DNA of 64,000 nt, taken from NCBI GenBank assembly GCA_019459455.1, contig JAIBEX010000014.1, forward strand, positions 62,001-126,000, read 5' to 3'. A model generated the notes under the pieces. The model had not been told where the DNA came from, ran no database searches, and saw nothing but the letters and a program-made list of their open reading frames with translations. The stretch comes from Weeksellaceae bacterium. Lineage in GTDB: Bacteria > Bacteroidota > Bacteroidia > Flavobacteriales > Weeksellaceae. This document shows, in pieces, positions 8,219 through 16,439 of this stretch (the stretch's first letter is position 1; the number at the start of each line of letters is the position of its first letter). Position numbers and translations under genes: made by a program.

Positions 8219-9649
8219 TTAACTATTCCCCGTCAGTTTTTTCAGCATCCCATTAAAAATCAAACCATGAAATGGCAGAACTGAATACCAATACAGCCTT
8301 CCGGACAAACCCAGCGGCCGGAAAGTCGCTTCCTGATGAAGGATTCCGTCTTTGATCCTGAACTCCAGCCAAGCTTCGCCCGGAAGTTTCATTTCGGCAA
8401 AGAGCAGCAAACGTTTTTTCTCTTTATCCGCGTAAAGGACCCGCCAGAAATCTACAGAATCACCTGCTTCCAAATTGTTTAAATTTCTGCGGCCCCGTCT
8501 TAAACCGACGCCGCCAAACAGTTTATCCAGAAAACCCCTTATTTTCCAAAGGAAATCAGCATAATACCATCCGGTCTGTCCACCAATACTGAAAATTCTT
8601 TCCACCGCTGCAGTTTCGTTGTCAACTTTCATCGACCGGACATCTTTGAAGCAGCCTTTGGACGGAACTTCCAGATACTGCCAGACATTTCTGGCGTGGA
8701 AGGAACCTGTAAAAGAATCGTACCAACTGGAAAGCACATCATTCTGTTTTATTTTGTCAAAAGCCTGTCTGATTGCTTCTTTGTAAGAAAAAAGATGGAT
8801 GCCGAGATCTTCTGCTAAAGTGTTCTTCTTTGCAATCACGTCTATTTTCATACTGTCTACCAGATTCTGAGCTAAGGAATAGGTGGTGCTCGTAATGAAA
8901 TAAAGCCAGTAAGATGAAAGCTTGGGCGTCATGATCGGAACCATATAGACATACCTTTTTAAACCGCGGACTTCTGCGTACTGCAAAAGCATTTCTTTGT
9001 ACGTCAGGACATCGGTTCCGGCAATATCATAATTTCTATTGTAAGTAAATTCCTTTCCCAAAACGCCCACCAAAAATTGAATTACGTTACGGATGGCGAT
9101 TGGCTGGGCTTGGGTGCTTAACCATTTAGGCGCGATCATTACCGGCAGTTTTTCTACGAGATCCCGGATGATCTCAAAGGAGGCACTTCCCGATCCTACG
9201 ATTATTGCCGCACGCAGGCTGGTAAGGGCATACCTCTCACTTTGAAGGGATTCCTCAACTTTTTTTCTGGACTGCAGGTGTTTTGAAAGTTTTTCTTCAT
9301 TGATGATTCCGGTCAGGAAAATGACCTGTTTCACAGCAGTTTTTTCGAGCGCGCACTTGAAATTTTCTGCAGAGATTCTTTCCTTTTCTTCAAAATCACC
9401 CTCGTTTGATGACATGGAATGAATGAGATAATAAGCAAAATCCACATCCTGCGGAATATTTTCAAGGGTGGAGGTGTTCAGAAAATCATTCTCAATAATC
9501 TCAAGCTGTTCCAGGTGGTTCTGAAAAAGTTTGGTGCTGAATCTGTTGCGGTCGCGTACGGAACAGACGACAGAATGACCTTCTTCCAGAAGCTGTATGA
9601 GCAAGCGCTTGCCTATGTAGCCGGTTACGCCGGTGAGAAAGATTTTCAT
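8219..9649 (-). CDS. SDR-family NAD(P)-binding protein with C-terminal DUF2867 domain
   Basis: The 476-residue protein has two parts. Residues 1 to about 300 form an atypical SDR/NmrA-like Rossmann domain (TGVTGYIGKRLL at 6-17, then DFAYYLIHSMSSNEGDF). Residues from about 325 to the end match DUF2867 by pattern (SFHARNVWQYLEVPS..., WRVLYADKEKKRLLLFAEMKLPGEAWLEF). Similar two-domain proteins occur beside photolyases and carotenoid genes in several light-induced clusters; that is recalled, not searched. Its ATG overlaps the stop of the SRPBCC gene by 4 bp (ATGA), so it is the last gene of the leftward crt operon. Its substrate is unknown. Confidence 0.8.
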   Translation of the reverse strand: MKIFLTGVTGYIGKRLLIQLLEEGHSVVCSVRDRNRFSTKLFQNHLEQLEIIENDFLNTSTLENIPQDVDFAYYLIHSMSSNEGDFEEKERISAENFKCALEKTAVKQVIFLTGIINEEKLSKHLQSRKKVEESLQSERYALTSLRAAIIVGSGSASFEIIRDLVEKLPVMIAPKWLSTQAQPIAIRNVIQFLVGVLGKEFTYNRNYDIAGTDVLTYKEMLLQYAEVRGLKRYVYMVPIMTPKLSSYWLYFITSTTYSLAQNLVDSMKIDVIAKKNTLAEDLGIHLFSYKEAIRQAFDKIKQNDVLSSWYDSFTGSFHARNVWQYLEVPSKGCFKDVRSMKVDNETAAVERIFSIGGQTGWYYADFLWKIRGFLDKLFGGVGLRRGRRNLNNLEAGDSVDFWRVLYADKEKKRLLLFAEMKLPGEAWLEFRIKDGILHQEATFRPLGLSGRLYWYSVLPFHGLIFNGMLKKLTGNS

Positions 9650-10131
9650 GGCTGCAGGATTTTTTCTAAGATCTTGTATCGGCTTTCAAAAATGGTTCTT
9701 ACTTTATTTTTGACCGGCGTTCCCGCAATTAAATCTCCCAAAATCCCGAAAGGCAGCTTGAAATTCACGATGTCCGTCATTTTAACTTTACCGTCCGAGG
9801 TTTCTTCGAAATGATGTTCGTGGTGCCACATGGCATACGGACCGAAACGCTGTTCATCCACAAAAAACTTTTCTTTAACCAAATGGGTTATTTCGGTGAT
9901 CCAGTTGTTCTTAATAAAAGGAAGAATACCTATTTTATAGGTAATGATCTGTCCCTGGTAGGTCTCCGAACCCGGACTGTTGGTGATATGGAAATTCATT
10001 TCGTCCGGTGTGATTTTATCCAGATTGGTGGGAACGGTAAAAAAGTCCCAAGCCTTTTCCAGCGACAGAGGCAGAATCTGTTCAGAAGTTAAGGTATAGA
10101 TTCCGGACTGTTTGTTAATGTTAATTTTCAT
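9646..10131 (-). CDS. SRPBCC-family (START-like) ligand-binding protein
   Basis: The 161-residue protein has the pattern of a polyketide-cyclase/START-like fold. The N-terminal strand reads YTLTSEQILPLSLEKAWDFFTVPTNLDKITP, with LPFIKNNWITEITHLVKEKFFVDEQRFGPYAMWHHEHHFEE in the middle. These small proteins bind hydrophobic molecules in a deep cavity. It overlaps the lycopene cyclase gene upstream by 11 bp and the SDR-DUF2867 gene downstream by 4 bp, so translation is probably coupled. A role with carotenoid or membrane-lipid ligands is inferred from position only. Confidence 0.8.
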   Translation of the reverse strand: MKININKQSGIYTLTSEQILPLSLEKAWDFFTVPTNLDKITPDEMNFHITNSPGSETYQGQIITYKIGILPFIKNNWITEITHLVKEKFFVDEQRFGPYAMWHHEHHFEETSDGKVKMTDIVNFKLPFGILGDLIAGTPVKNKVRTIFESRYKILEKILQP

Positions 10132-10846
10132 GATTTAACGTTGGTGTTGAAGGATAATTCGATTTTTTCTTTAGATATTCAAACAACAGGATGATGCTGT
10201 ACAGAAGGGTAAAACAGTAAAAGCTGTCTTCCAGCGGCATCGTTCCCACACGGATTCCCAGGTTTTCGGCATTATCATAAAACACCACAGGATTTTCGGA
10301 GTAATTTCCTGTCAGCGCATTATTCACAAAATAAAAAGGAATGTAAATCACAATAAAACTGAGGTAAAAACGCTGCGCATCTTTAAGTTTATGAATGATC
10401 TGCAACAGCATGAGGACAGCAAAAAGACCGAAGCTGCAGACGGTGTAGATTTTATCATAATTAAATAACGCGACCAAAAAACCCAATACAAAGAGTACGT
10501 AAGTAATCCACTGTGTTATTTTTTCATTCAACATTAGCTTTGGAAGGAAATACTCCAAAGCATAATGGATAAAGACACTGGCGTAAGGAATCAGCAGAAA
10601 AAACAGATACTCCTCCAGCGGCATTCCGATAATCCTGAATCCGATTAAATACTGGTCGTTGAACCCCCAGACATTCATATACGTGAAGTAAATGTCCCAG
10701 GCGATAAAGAATAAACCTACAAGCAAAATTGAGGTAAAAAAAGGTTTCCAGTATTGGATAAAATGCATCCTTTTACGCTCAAAACTGAAAAGGAATGGCA
10801 CAGTAAAACTAAAAAGATCCAGCAAAAGATAATAGTAAGACTCCAA
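10121..10846 (-). CDS. Lycopene cyclase, membrane CrtYc/CrtYd-type fusion
   Basis: The 241-residue integral membrane protein has about seven hydrophobic segments. The signature PLEE/PLED motif of heterodimer-type lycopene beta-cyclases occurs twice, at residues 76-79 (GMPLEEYLFF) and 204-207 (GTMPLEDSFY). This indicates a natural fusion of the CrtYc and CrtYd halves, as in Bacteroidota, archaea and fungi. The enzyme closes beta rings on lycopene to give beta-carotene. It follows crtZ by 11 bp and overlaps the SRPBCC gene by 11 bp. The calls of crtI, crtB and crtZ upstream make the assignment secure. Confidence 0.9.
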   Translation of the reverse strand: MESYYYLLLDLFSFTVPFLFSFERKRMHFIQYWKPFFTSILLVGLFFIAWDIYFTYMNVWGFNDQYLIGFRIIGMPLEEYLFFLLIPYASVFIHYALEYFLPKLMLNEKITQWITYVLFVLGFLVALFNYDKIYTVCSFGLFAVLMLLQIIHKLKDAQRFYLSFIVIYIPFYFVNNALTGNYSENPVVFYDNAENLGIRVGTMPLEDSFYCFTLLYSIILLFEYLKKKSNYPSTPTLNHEN

Positions 10847-10857
10847 ACCGGCTGTTT

Positions 10858-11325
10858 TTAGGAGGTTGACAATTTGGCTTCGCGGAAATATTTAAGAGGC
10901 ACGAAGAGCATACCGAAACATTCTCCGTGCTCCTTATCCAAATGCTTGTGATGTATTTTGTGTGCTTTTCTTAACCCGCGGAAATACCAGTTGTTGGTCT
11001 TGTCAAACCATTTGAACCGGCGGTGTATTAAAACATCGTGAACCAAAAAATAGGATATGCCATAAAATAAAACGCCCAAACCGACGAAAAACATCCAGTT
11101 AAGACCGTTCCAGGTTCCAAAATAACACAGTAAGATACAGGGAACCGCAAAAACCACGAAAAAGAAATCATTTTTTTCAAAAACGTGCGGGTAACCCGGC
11201 TGGTGGTGGTCTTCGTGAAAATACCAACCGAGACCGTGCATGATGTATTTGTGCGTGAGCCAGGTAACGCCTTCCATTGTTACATAAGTGCCCAAAGTAA
11301 TCAATATATAAAGTACAGCTTCCAT
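10858..11325 (-). CDS. crtZ: Beta-carotene hydroxylase
   Basis: The 155-residue membrane di-iron hydroxylase should convert beta-carotene to cryptoxanthin and zeaxanthin. The histidine clusters that bind iron are complete: His25/His30 (HKYIMH), His37/His40/His41 (HEDHH), His96/His101 (HDVLIH) and His122/His125/His126/His128 (HKIHHKH). Four hydrophobic stretches anchor it in the membrane. It lies 3 bp after the hypothetical secreted protein gene and 11 bp before the cyclase. No ketolase gene (crtW) is in the operon, so the expected end product of this locus is zeaxanthin unless enzymes elsewhere act on it. Confidence 0.93.
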   Translation of the reverse strand: MEAVLYILITLGTYVTMEGVTWLTHKYIMHGLGWYFHEDHHQPGYPHVFEKNDFFFVVFAVPCILLCYFGTWNGLNWMFFVGLGVLFYGISYFLVHDVLIHRRFKWFDKTNNWYFRGLRKAHKIHHKHLDKEHGECFGMLFVPLKYFREAKLSTS

Positions 11326-11328
11326 TCT

Positions 11329-11787
11329 TTACAGTTTTAAATGCATCTTAATTCTTTTAATAAGATCCTGGTCTTTCGATTTTTTATATTCTGCTAAAAT
11401 ATATTTCCGGTCGCTGCTGATGTTCTGACTGTAATTTAATATGCCGGGCGTCTGCTCCTGGGATATGTAGCGCATAAATCTGATTTCCAAATTATGAGGA
11501 TCACTTTTCACTGCATTTTCAAGAGCCCTTTTTCCTTTGTTAAAATACGAATATTTACTTATAGGATTCATTGCATGTTTTGCCATAAAAAAGTTTCCAA
11601 CGGCAAAAAAAGCCTCGTAGATAGGTTTGCCGGTCCTGTCGAAAGCCCGTTTTGAACTTTCCAGCAGCGTTTTGGAGGCGACAGGAGAATCTTCACCTTT
11701 CTGTAAAAGGAACCGGTAGTCCGCCAGTGTCTGCGCATTGAGCAGCATTACAAAAGTGAGAAAAAGGGTAAATAATAGTCTCTTCAT
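11329..11787 (-). CDS. Hypothetical secreted helical protein in the carotenoid operon
   Basis: The 152-residue protein begins with a signal peptide (MKRLLFTLFLTFVMLLNAQ). The rest looks all-helical, with TPR-like spacing in segments such as YFNKGKRALENAVKSDPHNL. No known domain was identified with certainty. Its start codon shares one base with the crtB stop (TAATG) and its stop lies 3 bp before the crtZ start, so it is firmly embedded between biosynthetic genes. A carotenoid-handling or envelope role is only inferred from this place. Confidence 0.75.
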   Translation of the reverse strand: MKRLLFTLFLTFVMLLNAQTLADYRFLLQKGEDSPVASKTLLESSKRAFDRTGKPIYEAFFAVGNFFMAKHAMNPISKYSYFNKGKRALENAVKSDPHNLEIRFMRYISQEQTPGILNYSQNISSDRKYILAEYKKSKDQDLIKRIKMHLKL

Positions 11788-12638
11788 TATATTCGTACGA
11801 GGTTTAAGTTTTTATTCAGCATCATCTCTCCGAAAAGATATATTTTTCTGGCATTTGAAACGCGGATTCTTTTGGTAAGAAGCAGTGCCGGATCGGTCTT
11901 TCTTATCTTCTTAAACAGATTGATATAATACTTGTACGCCATGAACACCGCAAGTCTGCTGGATATAGGCAGCATCTTAATGCCGATGAATGCGTGGGCA
12001 AAGTCTTTGGCGATGTCTTTTTCGATCTCTTTTTTGTCTTCCGAATTGAATTTACTGAAATCTACATTCGGAAAGTAAGTGCGGTTCAGGTCATTAAAAT
12101 CTGCACTGATGTCCCGTAAAAAATTGATTTTCTGAAATGCGGCACCCAAACTCTGTGCGTAAGGTTTCAGTCTTTCATATTCTTCCACTTCACCATTTAC
12201 AAATACCTTCAGGCACATCAGTCCTACCACTTCGGCAGAACCGTAAATGTACTCATTGTATTTTTCGTCGTTTAAACCCTTAATCTCACCCAGATCCATC
12301 TTCATGGAATGCAGAAAAGCATCCACCAAATGCTGCGGGATCTTCTTCTCTCTCTGGGTTACACAGAAGGAATGAAGAATTGGGTTCAGCGAAATGCCGA
12401 TTTCCAAGGCATACCGATAGTTCTGTTCGAATTCATCCATCAGTTTTGCCTTGTCAAAATCGTGGAACGTGTCTACAATTTCATCGGCAAAACGCACAAA
12501 GCCATATATATTGTAAATATGCTGCCTGATTTCGGGCTTGAAGAGCGTAGAGGCTCTTGAAAATGAGGTGCTGTATTTTTCGGTCACCATTTTCGAGGAA
12601 AGTCCGCAGACTTTATTAAAAATTTCCAGGTTATTCAT
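11787..12638 (-). CDS. crtB: Phytoene synthase (squalene/phytoene synthase family)
   Basis: The 283-residue enzyme condenses two geranylgeranyl diphosphates head-to-head to phytoene. Both aspartate-rich diphosphate/Mg-binding motifs are present: DEIVD at 52-56, and DISAD at 176-180 within LRDISADFNDLNRTYFP. The YxxxFxxA-like region around KYSTSFSRAS also fits. It follows crtI by 12 bp and shares a base with the next gene. No geranylgeranyl diphosphate synthase (crtE) is in the operon, so the substrate must come from a prenyl synthase encoded elsewhere. Confidence 0.95.
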   Translation of the reverse strand: MNNLEIFNKVCGLSSKMVTEKYSTSFSRASTLFKPEIRQHIYNIYGFVRFADEIVDTFHDFDKAKLMDEFEQNYRYALEIGISLNPILHSFCVTQREKKIPQHLVDAFLHSMKMDLGEIKGLNDEKYNEYIYGSAEVVGLMCLKVFVNGEVEEYERLKPYAQSLGAAFQKINFLRDISADFNDLNRTYFPNVDFSKFNSEDKKEIEKDIAKDFAHAFIGIKMLPISSRLAVFMAYKYYINLFKKIRKTDPALLLTKRIRVSNARKIYLFGEMMLNKNLNLVRI

Positions 12639-12650
12639 AGTTATGTGTTT

Positions 12651-14120
12651 TTAGAACAGTTGGTGTTTATTTTTAAGAATATAGTCTGTAACTACTTTTC
12701 CCGAAATCAAAGCCGGGGGAACTCCGGGCCCGGGAACCGTAAGCTGGCCGGTGTAAAAGAGATTCTTGATTTTCTTATTGGTGATACTAGGCCTCAACAC
12801 TGATGTCTGCAGCAAAGTATTCGCTAAACCATACGCATTTCCGCGGCAGGAATAATAACGTTCTTTAAAATCCTGAACCCCGAAACTTTTTTTAACGATC
12901 ACGGAATCCCGAAGATTTTCACCCGTGTTTTTTTCAATACGATCCATGATGATCTCAAAATAGCGGTCATGGATTTCTTCTGAATCCTTTAAATCTACAG
13001 CAACGGGAATAAGGAAAAACCCGACTTCCTTGCCTTCCGGACAAAGGTCTGCATCGGTTTTACTGGAGAAATTAGCATAAAAAAGCGGTTTTTCCGGTAA
13101 TGTTTTGGTGTCGTAAATCTCTTCTGCATGACGTTTAAAATCAGTATCAAAAAATAAGTTGTGATGCTGAAGCTGCGGAACTTTTCTGTCAAAGGCCACA
13201 TAATATAAAAAGGAAGACGGAGCGAAGGTTTTCTTCTGCCAGTAATCCGGGGTGTAATTCTGTTCTGTAGATTTCAGCAAGGTTTCGGTATGCGCATAAT
13301 CTGCTCCGGAAATTATGAGGTCTGCTTCAAAAGTACCATTTTCAGTAATAACTGCTTTCGCACTATTGCCTTCTGTACGGATTTCTGTAACTTCTTCATT
13401 TACCAGAAAGGTCACGCCTAATTCTTCGGCTAATTTCTGCATCCCTTTCGCCACCGCATTGAATCCCCCTTTTGGATACCAGGTTCCCATACCGAAATCA
13501 GCGTGGTTCATAAAATTATAGAAAGCAGGCGTGTTGTTGGGTTTCGCGCCTAAAAATAAAACCGGAAATTCTAAAATGCTTCTGAGTTTAGGGTTCTTAA
13601 TGTTTTTCCGGACGGTTTCGGAGATGTTCTGGACAAAGAGTGGAAGCCGTTTTGCAGTTTCTACGCTCACCAACTCCAAAATGGATTTTCCCGGGTTGTA
13701 TACGAGATCCTTCATGGCGATTTCGTAATTGGCTTTGGCTTTCTTCATGAAATCCTGTAAATGTTTACCACTGCCCTTTTCAATTTTTTCAAAAGTTTCT
13801 ATAATTTCTTCCAGCCTGTCAGAAATATCTATAAAATCATTTTTTCCAAAATAGACGCGGTAACCCGGCGAAAGTTTCTCCAAGCTGTAATGATCTGAAA
13901 CTTTTTTTCCAAAATCTCCGAAAAAACGTTCAAAAATATCGGGCATCCAGTACCAACTTGGACCCATATCAAACTTAAACCCATCAATTTCAAGCAGGGA
14001 AGCACGCCCGCCAACCTGTTCATTCTTTTCAAGGACAGTCACCTGAAAGCCCGCCTTAGCCATATAACAGGCGGATGCAAGTGATGAAAATCCTGAACCA
14101 ATAATGATGACTTTTTTCAT
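12651..14120 (-). CDS. crtI: Phytoene desaturase (CrtI type)
   Basis: The 489-residue FAD-dependent desaturase converts phytoene to lycopene. The N-terminal dinucleotide fold (IIGSGFSSLASACYMAKAGFQVTVLEKN at about 5-32) and the family C-terminal signature (NLFYTGQLTVPGPGVPPALISGKVV) are clear, and the length is typical. It is the first gene of the leftward operon, with its ATG at 14118-14120. A -7 box is centred 20 bp upstream, so the leader would be very short. Confidence 0.95.
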   Translation of the reverse strand: MKKVIIIGSGFSSLASACYMAKAGFQVTVLEKNEQVGGRASLLEIDGFKFDMGPSWYWMPDIFERFFGDFGKKVSDHYSLEKLSPGYRVYFGKNDFIDISDRLEEIIETFEKIEKGSGKHLQDFMKKAKANYEIAMKDLVYNPGKSILELVSVETAKRLPLFVQNISETVRKNIKNPKLRSILEFPVLFLGAKPNNTPAFYNFMNHADFGMGTWYPKGGFNAVAKGMQKLAEELGVTFLVNEEVTEIRTEGNSAKAVITENGTFEADLIISGADYAHTETLLKSTEQNYTPDYWQKKTFAPSSFLYYVAFDRKVPQLQHHNLFFDTDFKRHAEEIYDTKTLPEKPLFYANFSSKTDADLCPEGKEVGFFLIPVAVDLKDSEEIHDRYFEIIMDRIEKNTGENLRDSVIVKKSFGVQDFKERYYSCRGNAYGLANTLLQTSVLRPSITNKKIKNLFYTGQLTVPGPGVPPALISGKVVTDYILKNKHQLF

Positions 14121-14491
14121 ACCTATTTTATTGGTACAAAACTATACTTTTAATTTTATAATAGAAATATTTTGTACTATATTTGCAATACAATTTATCA
14201 ATGATCACCATTTGCAACACGCAACATCAAAACTATTTTCTGTAGCGAAAGCCGCTTTCAGGAATGTACTGTAATCTATATCATAGAAACATTGGTGCAA
14301 ATCCCGACACCCAAATATCTCGCCAGTTAATGGTGTGTGAATTTTACGGTCATTTTATTCCGCAGATTTAGTGATAAAAGTATCTTTGCACAACAGGAAG
14401 CAAGTGCATAATGGGGTCAAACATCCTGGGCAGGTTCAGGGGTTTTAAAATGTAAATGAACCGGGTCCAGATAACAAAATTAAAGAAAACC
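14121..14491. promoter_or_regulatory. Divergent regulatory region between crtI and the MarR gene
   Basis: This 371-bp stretch has no convincing gene. Its left part carries GTACAAAA (14134-14141) and the exact inverse TTTTGTAC (14170-14177), 28 bp apart. The left arm overlaps a leftward -7 box TAGTTTTG (14137-14144, minus strand) for crtI. Just right of the right arm is a rightward -7 box TATATTTG (14178-14185), and a second rightward box TATCTTTG lies at 14381-14388. No good TTG at -33 accompanies them. A short hairpin (GAAAG-CCG-CTTTC) occurs near 14250. The symmetry suggests one regulator, most simply the adjacent MarR protein, acting on both directions; this is inference. Confidence 0.55.
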
Positions 14492-15134: not shown

Positions 15135-16439
15135 ATGCCTCAAAAATTATCCGTTTTTTGGTTCAGAAGAGACTTAAGGCTGACCGATAATCATGGATTA
15201 TATAAAGCCTTAATTTCAGGAAATAAGGTATTGCCGATCTTTATCTTCGACACCGAAATTCTTGAGAAGCTTGAAAACAAGGCAGACCGCAGAGTCGATT
15301 TTATTGTTCAGGCTCTCAAAAAAATTAATGCAGAACTGGAGGAAACCGGAAAATCCATTACAATTTTTCATGGTAAACCTTTAGAAATTTTTAAAGATCT
15401 GATTGCAACTTATAATGTAGAAAAGGTTCTCTGCAATGAAGATTACGAACCTTCTGCCATTAAAAGGGACGCCGCTGTTAAAGACTTTTTACACAAAAAA
15501 AATATAGAATTTCATTCGTACAAAGATCAGGTTCACTTTCATAAAGATGAAATACTGAAAGCGGATCAAACTCCTTACACGGTTTACACGCCCTATTCAA
15601 AACAATGGCATTCAAAATATAATTCGGAGGAAAAACCACATTATCCTTCCGAAGATTTTCTCCAAAACTTAGAAATTGTTGAAAAACAAAATCTTTCATT
15701 GGAAATGATTGGCTTCAAGTCTACGGGTCTCCAGTTTCAAAGTCCTGAAATCAATACCATAATTCTAAAAAACTACCACGAAACCCGGAATTTTCCGGCT
15801 ACCAGGACCTCGGAGATGAGTGTGCATTTACGGTTCGGAACCATCAGCGTCCGTGAACTCGGCAAAACCGCAGCAGCACTCAACGAAACTTATCTGAAAG
15901 AGTTGATTTGGCGGGAGTTTTTCATGCAAATTCTCTATCATTTTCCCAAAGTGATGCATCAGTCTTTCAAACCAAAATACGACCGGATTCCGTGGCTTTA
16001 TGATGAAGAAAGTTTTAGAAAATGGCAGGAAGGAAAAACCGGATTTCCCATCGTTGATGCCGGAATGCGTGAACTGAACGAAACCGGGCTGATGCATAAC
16101 CGGGTAAGAATGGTTTGCGCCAGTTTTCTCATTAAACATTTGCTGACTGACTGGAGAATTGGCGAAGCGTATTTCGCGGAAAAACTTTTGGATTATGATT
16201 TGTCTTCCAATAACGGAAACTGGCAGTGGACGGCAGGATCCGGCTGTGATGCGGCACCGTATTTCAGGGTTTTCAATCCCGAGGAGCAACAGAAAAAATT
16301 TGATCCCGATTTTATTTATATTAAAAAATGGGTAAAGGAATTTGGGACTGCAGCATATCCAAAACCAATGATTGACCACCGATTTGCACGAGAAAGAGCC
16401 CTGGAAAAGTATAAAAACGCATTACAGGAAAATTTTTAA
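15135..16439 (+). CDS. phr: Deoxyribodipyrimidine photolyase / cryptochrome family (class I type)
   Basis: The 434-residue flavoprotein should repair UV-induced cyclobutane dimers using blue light. The N-terminal alpha/beta domain (SVFWFRRDLRLTDNHGL at 6-22) binds the antenna cofactor. The C-terminal domain carries FAD-binding signatures: LIWREFFMQILYHFP, GFPIVDAGMRELNETGLMHNRVRM and NNGNWQWTAGSGCDAAPYFRVFNP. It is translationally close to the MarR gene and overlaps the convergent lipid-kinase gene by 4 bp. With the divergent carotenoid operon it makes a light-damage defence region. Confidence 0.93.
   Translation: MPQKLSVFWFRRDLRLTDNHGLYKALISGNKVLPIFIFDTEILEKLENKADRRVDFIVQALKKINAELEETGKSITIFHGKPLEIFKDLIATYNVEKVLCNEDYEPSAIKRDAAVKDFLHKKNIEFHSYKDQVHFHKDEILKADQTPYTVYTPYSKQWHSKYNSEEKPHYPSEDFLQNLEIVEKQNLSLEMIGFKSTGLQFQSPEINTIILKNYHETRNFPATRTSEMSVHLRFGTISVRELGKTAAALNETYLKELIWREFFMQILYHFPKVMHQSFKPKYDRIPWLYDEESFRKWQEGKTGFPIVDAGMRELNETGLMHNRVRMVCASFLIKHLLTDWRIGEAYFAEKLLDYDLSSNNGNWQWTAGSGCDAAPYFRVFNPEEQQKKFDPDFIYIKKWVKEFGTAAYPKPMIDHRFARERALEKYKNALQENF

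Follow-up and report, generated by a model that had tools for sequence, protein, structure and literature searches.

A conserved pair of TAGTA-N8-TACTA sites between the carotenoid and marR-photolyase genes of a Weeksellaceae bacterium, a candidate double operator for a MarR-family protein

What is known of light control over carotenoid synthesis in bacteria comes mostly from CarH/LitR and actinobacterial CrtR, and the crt locus of a Weeksellaceae bacterium raises the question of which element, read by which protein, could control pigment genes and a photolyase gene from one intergenic region. In the stretch of 64,000 nucleotides analysed here (the window, from a genome of 2.59 Mb in 22 contigs), the crt cluster runs leftward from crtI, and a MarR-family gene followed by a photolyase-family gene runs rightward (Table 1). 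The first-pass annotation, made from the letters alone, had proposed that two inverted octamers, GTACAAAA and TTTTGTAC, form the operator by which the MarR protein or a light-responsive factor would control both sets of genes. The octamers are present, exact and with a spacer of 28; as described there, the left arm overlaps the crtI -7-like box TAGTTTTG, the right arm abuts the rightward box TATATTTG, and pigment and photolyase genes do lie on the two sides of the control element. The -7 box consensus is TAnnTTTG. For marR, a start at 14456 was rejected and 14492 taken, because the orthologues begin there. The photolyase-family protein scores below the NCBIfam cut-offs of the named subtypes, and two conserved proteins of the crt cluster (window 11329-11787 and 9646-10131; 152 and 161 aa) have no Pfam match.

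Table 1. Features of the crt-marR region (window coordinates)
Feature	Position	Strand	Basis or remark
Lycopene cyclase	10121..10834	-	Pfam Lycopene_cyc
FA_hydroxylase protein (probably crtZ; inferred name)	10858..11325	-	Pfam
crtB, phytoene synthase	11787..12638	-	Pfam SQS_PSY
crtI, phytoene desaturase	12651..14120	-	NCBIfam CrtID, above cut-off
Operator-like site L, TGGTACAAAACTATACTT on + (AAGTA-N8-TACCA on -)	14132..14149	-	8/10 half-site positions; contains the crtI -7 box
Left octamer arm GTACAAAA	14134..14141	+	Exact; part of site L
crtI -7-like box TAGTTTTG	14137..14144 (read 14144-14137)	-	Match to consensus
Operator-like site R, TAGAAATATTTTGTACTA	14162..14179	+	9/10 half-site positions; runs into the rightward -7 box
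Right octamer arm TTTTGTAC	14170..14177	+	Exact; part of site R
Rightward -7-like box TATATTTG	14178..14185	+	Position conserved in relatives
Second -7-like box TATCTTTG, nearer marR	14381..14388	+	Match to consensus
MarR-family regulator, 213 aa	14492..15133	+	Pfam HTH_27; model against MarR structures; orthologue starts
Photolyase/cryptochrome-family gene, directly 3' of marR	15135..16439	+	Pfam DNA_photolyase and FAD_binding_7

We collected 50 crtI upstream regions, of which four were dropped (G118, at a contig end; G016 and G059, with no block; G192, with a spacer of 10 instead of 9), and the remaining 46 collapse to 41 distinct blocks. Among these, full 8/8 pairing of the octamers is found in one, the window's own, and 7/8 pairing in two, and the arm-to-arm matches (202) are fewer than the mean of 213 obtained with right arms shuffled between genomes. 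The exact GTACAAAA/TTTTGTAC pair has a single occurrence in the window and is absent from all of 100 shuffles, a test picked after the string had been seen; exact 8-bp inverted pairs of any kind with spacers of 20-36 number 49 in the window, and when the 335-bp region 14121-14455 was shuffled by mononucleotides 1,000 times, one or more such pairs turned up in 119 cases. With 49 such pairs in the window and conservation in one block of 41, we rejected the octamer palindrome as an operator. The alignment with related genomes upheld the conservation of the interval and not that of the two octamers together: the interval is much more conserved than its flanks because two operator-like sites (L and R) lie inside it, and the symmetry axis given for the octamers, 14155.5, is correct because their arms are parts of these sites, between which the axis runs.

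Sites L and R are 18 bp each, of the form TAGTA-N8-TACTA, with centres 30 bp apart (about three helical turns). When the half-site motif was slid along the 41 distinct blocks, site R was the best of 91 aligned offsets (14162; mean 8.68/10) and site L the second best (14132; mean 7.61/10), and none of 2,000 column permutations reached the score of either, a result that holds with 18 thinned genomes. A spacer of 8 between the half-sites beat all others from 4 to 14 in the aligned blocks. The motif was derived from a second MarR clade and, in some relatives, from the right site itself, which makes the score of site R partly circular; site L took no part in defining it. Within the 64-kb window, site R is the only site scoring at least 9, and L and R are the only pair scoring at least 16/20. 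Mean column identity is 0.76-0.98 over the parts of the block versus 0.57-0.58 in the flanks, the spacing of the block is fixed, and the six fixed positions of the crtI -7 box are invariant. The right part forms a perfect 18-bp palindrome, TAGTAAAATATTTTACTA, in five relatives; among the matches listed, G063 and G079 each have one exact copy of this string, located at the crt promoter. Site R alone, as a single-palindrome operator, was our first candidate and was given up. A dyad centred at 14144.5 did well for short half-lengths; the position of the left block is better matched by the N8 motif. Judged from the alignment, the interval 14132-14179 is a strongly conserved putative control block, and the two sites are its conserved units.

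The regulator next to this block scores 36.5 bits against Pfam HTH_27 (cut-off 22.2) and 23.1 bits against MarR_2, below the cut-off of 27, and its predicted structure (pLDDT 73.9, pTM 0.49) matches MarR structures over about 124 columns (best E 2.5e-6); by both measures, it is a member of the MarR family with the winged-helix fold. The protein was found in 23 named relatives, 19 of them Kaistella or Chryseobacterium. The photolyase gene lies directly 3' of marR in 25 of 30 fetched marR loci, and crtI is divergent from marR within the 1,500-base flank in 11 (the window and 10 of the 29 others, directly divergent). All eight long loci have an operon ORF1(TetR_C_23)-UbiB-...-marR, followed by the photolyase gene, that diverges from crtI; the genome search gave no ORF1 match in the window genome, and so marR-photolyase adjoins crtI there. 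Genome G031, likewise lacking ORF1, has marR and crtI directly divergent and site R intact, and in G022 and, by look, G113 the block is found away from crtI, between ribA-SDR2867 and SDR-marR. Upstream of ORF1-UbiB-marR in Flavobacterium UBA7665 (L183), two sites scoring 10 and 9 of 10 lie 31 bp apart, a distance also seen in pairs of G086 and G022. MarR loci L127, L132 and L184 have no clear site nearby; for operons with marR far from the promoter, the promoter is mostly outside the fetched sequence.

Immediately ahead of another crtI gene lies the gene of a second MarR clade (26-31% identity with the window protein), and TAGTA-N8-TACTA precedes its own start. Of 20 regions, 15 were scanned (L146 and L150-L153 were left out), and the best site scored 10/10 in three, 9 in six and at most 8 in six, one of the 9/10 sites being 108 bases away. 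In G086 the first-clade protein is lost and the crt sites are kept, which would be explained only by the second-clade MarR of that genome, itself preceded by a 9/10 site; a further site pair is located there between ORF1 and ribA. Both clades share the stretch N-x-H-(E/D)-K-x-x-G-x-x-I-I-x-R-L over the predicted recognition helix (helix 117-129 of the predicted structure) in 12 of 12 sequences; another alignment shows departures from it, at the H and at one I, in individual first-clade sequences. By sequence comparison, then, the element appears to follow MarR genes, also where these do not adjoin crtI, and the two 18-bp sites are probably bound by the adjacent MarR protein. The idea of joint pigment and photolyase control keeps its main part, in that the element covers both divergent promoters and goes with the MarR gene; its choice of the octamers as operator does not survive. 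Control of the photolyase gene is less certain in the window genome, because the second promoter-like box at 14381-14388 stands before marR, and near this box there is no TAGTA-N8-TACTA site scoring at least 7. The TATCTTTG box recurs close to marR, at the same place, in relatives without ORF1, as if the marR-photolyase unit had gained its own promoter in these. Just downstream of the rightward -7 box, several ORF1-less genomes (L033-L035) have a short inverted repeat like TTATCAATGATAA, weaker in the window (14197-14210).

Genome-wide, we searched for two sites 30 or 31 bp apart with at most 3 mismatches in 20, and the window genome gave two matches, the crt promoter and, on another contig, the promoter of a fasciclin gene. 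This second pair (G000:C1:272459-272506; L193:1501-1548) ends 29 bases before the ATG of a gene (L193:1578-2528) whose 316-aa product contains two fasciclin domains and what looks by eye like a lipoprotein signal. The pair is found in 13 of 13 orthologues of at least 72% identity (own genome included), starting 74-78 bases before the gene start; each of the 13 lies beyond 200 of 200 shuffles, and nine are outside the matches of the searches that led there. By eye, the site nearer the gene extends into a -7-like box, in the register seen at site R. Three orthologues of 65-66% identity (Chryseobacterium-type, L223-L225) are without the pair, and two further copies of 64%, without a locus, were left out of the count. 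Among four distant homologues, L228 and L229 pass the pair scan and L226 and L227 fail; of ten single-domain or partial controls, scanned from the match start and not from a known gene start, one passes (L231 of G008, itself a pattern match). All 20 genomes with a two-domain fasciclin protein have crtI, versus 73 of 120 overall, kinship being ignored in this count, and in G107 the gene order is MarR2-crtI-fasciclin. At three loci where the fasciclin gene is missing, L256 (G182), L258 (G102) and L259 (G111), the pair persists beside the usual neighbour gene.

The same search gave 25 pair matches in 18 genomes, 19 of them at crt, marR, ORF1-UbiB, ribA or fasciclin genes (two of the 19 at the distant G008 fasciclin homologues, one about 320 bp upstream), with the rest before an EgtB-like gene (one, L197), inside genes (two, L195 and L207) and in other gaps (three, L187, L203 and L204). 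In 20 further genomes, 34 matches comprised 12 at crt, 15 at the fasciclin locus (including the three in G102, G111 and G182), one at ribA, one at a rhodopsin/beta-carotene dioxygenase promoter (L248), one at an EgtB-like gene (L265), three inside genes (L262-L264) and one in another gap (L266). Raw pair counts are below those of the reversed-pattern control (16 versus 35, 9 versus 13, 34 versus 44), and so the case rests on which genes the matches precede. Genome-wide, single-site patterns are swamped by chance matches in AT-rich sequence; when one mismatch was allowed in TAGTA-N8-TACTA, its reversed control was commoner in 10 of 10 genomes. In relatives the pair recurs at marR, crtI, ribA, ORF1-UbiB and fasciclin promoters, and its place in front of genes other than crt points to a small light-protection gene set. 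In one genome, the pair at L248:1501-1548 (G165:C1:525628-525675) is flanked by genes for a rhodopsin (PF01036) and a beta-carotene 15,15'-dioxygenase (PF15461), a promoter that would be a further light-related target. Two genomes have a pair before the same gene (L197:1501-1548, G174:C2:732433; L265:1427-1474, G188:C6:370826), which in L197 encodes FGE-sulfatase and DinB_2 domains and which we take to be EgtB-like; the next gene in L197 looks like EgtD, and the EgtB-like gene is a possible ergothioneine-type antioxidant target.

In our view the adjacent MarR-family protein probably uses the interval as a double operator and would repress in both directions until a signal releases the dimers. 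MarR dimers would bind site L, over the crtI -7 box, and site R, into the rightward -7 box, and block RNA polymerase at both promoters, so that repression would fall jointly on the crt operon and on the marR-photolyase unit to which the regulator itself belongs; in the window genome the fasciclin gene would be repressed by the MarR protein likewise. Release would come from a signal, probably light, acting via a product of photo-oxidation or of isoprenoid metabolism; light is suggested by the gene content and by two actinobacterial systems. The binding, the sign of control, the inducer and the share of the rightward promoter in driving the photolyase gene are the parts that we infer.

The block could instead hold no operator and be conserved only as two overlapping divergent promoters. 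The invariant positions of the left half do include the full -7 box, and site R has two bases in common with its own; however, the half-sites of site R are conserved outside the -7 box, the second MarR clade has the same half-sites and spacing with the -7 box in another register, and the same half-sites recur in fasciclin promoters, which face one direction only and in which the half-sites (0.94, 0.83) are more conserved than the N8 stretches and spacer (0.73, 0.73, 0.61), all of which makes this explanation improbable. Another binder is conceivable in the TetR_C_23 protein (ORF1), whose gene is divergent from crtI in many relatives and is the first across the promoter in all eight long loci, yet we regard it as very unlikely: 12 of 20 genomes, the window genome included, have no ORF1 match, and the crt block persists where crtI is present; seven ORF1-less genomes (G000, G001, G002, G028, G072, G127, G132) have the fasciclin pair; and the motif is present at second-clade MarR-crtI operons whose fetched piece contains no ORF1. 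CarH/LitR sites contain TGTAC. Just as unlikely is a reading in which the GTACAAAA/TTTTGTAC pair would be recognised by a different light regulator, for instance a B12-dependent protein of the CarH/LitR type, the known light switches of crt genes in non-phototrophic bacteria (PMC6739363): the two octamers are not kept together in relatives, and it is MarR genes that the conserved element follows. In the adjacent regulator, Pfam matched only HTH_27 and MarR_2, and not the MerR and B12-binding domains of the CarH type.

Beyond the double operator at crtI, we tentatively propose, as a possibility short of even chances, a Weeksellaceae photoprotection regulon in which MarR proteins would read paired TAGTA-N8-TACTA sites about three helical turns apart in front of genes for carotenoid synthesis, photolyase, ribA (flavin supply), a UbiB-type kinase and a surface fasciclin lipoprotein, joined in single lineages by rhodopsin with retinal synthesis and by an EgtB-like enzyme; the fasciclin protein would then take an active part in carotenoid photoprotection, perhaps by holding carotenoids. 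Bacteroidota would gain a candidate MarR system whose operator is exact enough to be tested and whose list of targets is short. A search of the open-licence literature, with most subscription journals outside it, found nothing on such a MarR regulon in this phylum. The fasciclin target is unexpected, and the common promoter element together with the MarR-crtI-fasciclin row of G107 offers a link of fasciclin proteins to light or pigment that can be tested in harmless bacteria.

The closest known systems are actinobacterial. In Corynebacterium glutamicum, whose crt genes are light-inducible, the MarR-type CrtR is encoded divergently from crt and represses the crt operon and its own gene (PMC6739363, PMC5401885); its footprint extends over the -10 and -35 of crtE and the -10 of crtR and, at 52 bp, is longer than usual for MarR proteins, whose binding sites are inverted repeats of 16-20 bp (PMC6739363). 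The window has a similar layout, with a MarR-type gene divergent from crt and an element over both promoters. Unlike CrtR, which needs a TTAA motif and for which a small regulon is reported (PMC6739363, PMC5401885), the system described here has two TAGTA-N8-TACTA copies and further predicted targets; TTAA occurs at window 14150-14153, where the consensus of the 41 blocks is TTAT. The C. glutamicum photolyase gene phrB is not light-induced (PMC6739363). By analogy of layout, and with another operator motif, the window system would be CrtR-like and not CrtR.

AstaP, a carotenoid-binding fasciclin protein of green algae, is similar in tying a fasciclin-domain protein to carotenoids; carotenoid binding was proposed to be special to algal AstaPs, a cyanobacterial homologue having failed to bind (PMC10147662), and the link here, unlike that of AstaP, is drawn from promoter element and gene neighbourhood alone. 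In Mycobacterium kansasii, the 14 genes induced by 20 min of light are those of the crt locus with crtR and of a photolyase locus, two genes with fasciclin domains and a single PE gene (PMC9861118). CrtR is there the MarR-type crt repressor, with its control of the photolyase and fasciclin genes not established; the fasciclin genes have putative SigK sites, and according to the authors nothing had been reported that ties the secreted fasciclin proteins to light or pigment (PMC9861118, section 2.6). Here, in a different phylum, genes of these kinds carry the paired element or lie in operons behind it, and the likeness may be a coincidence. If the regulon proposed above is real, it would, together with the light-induced crt, photolyase and fasciclin genes of M. 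kansasii, represent a recurrent module across phyla.
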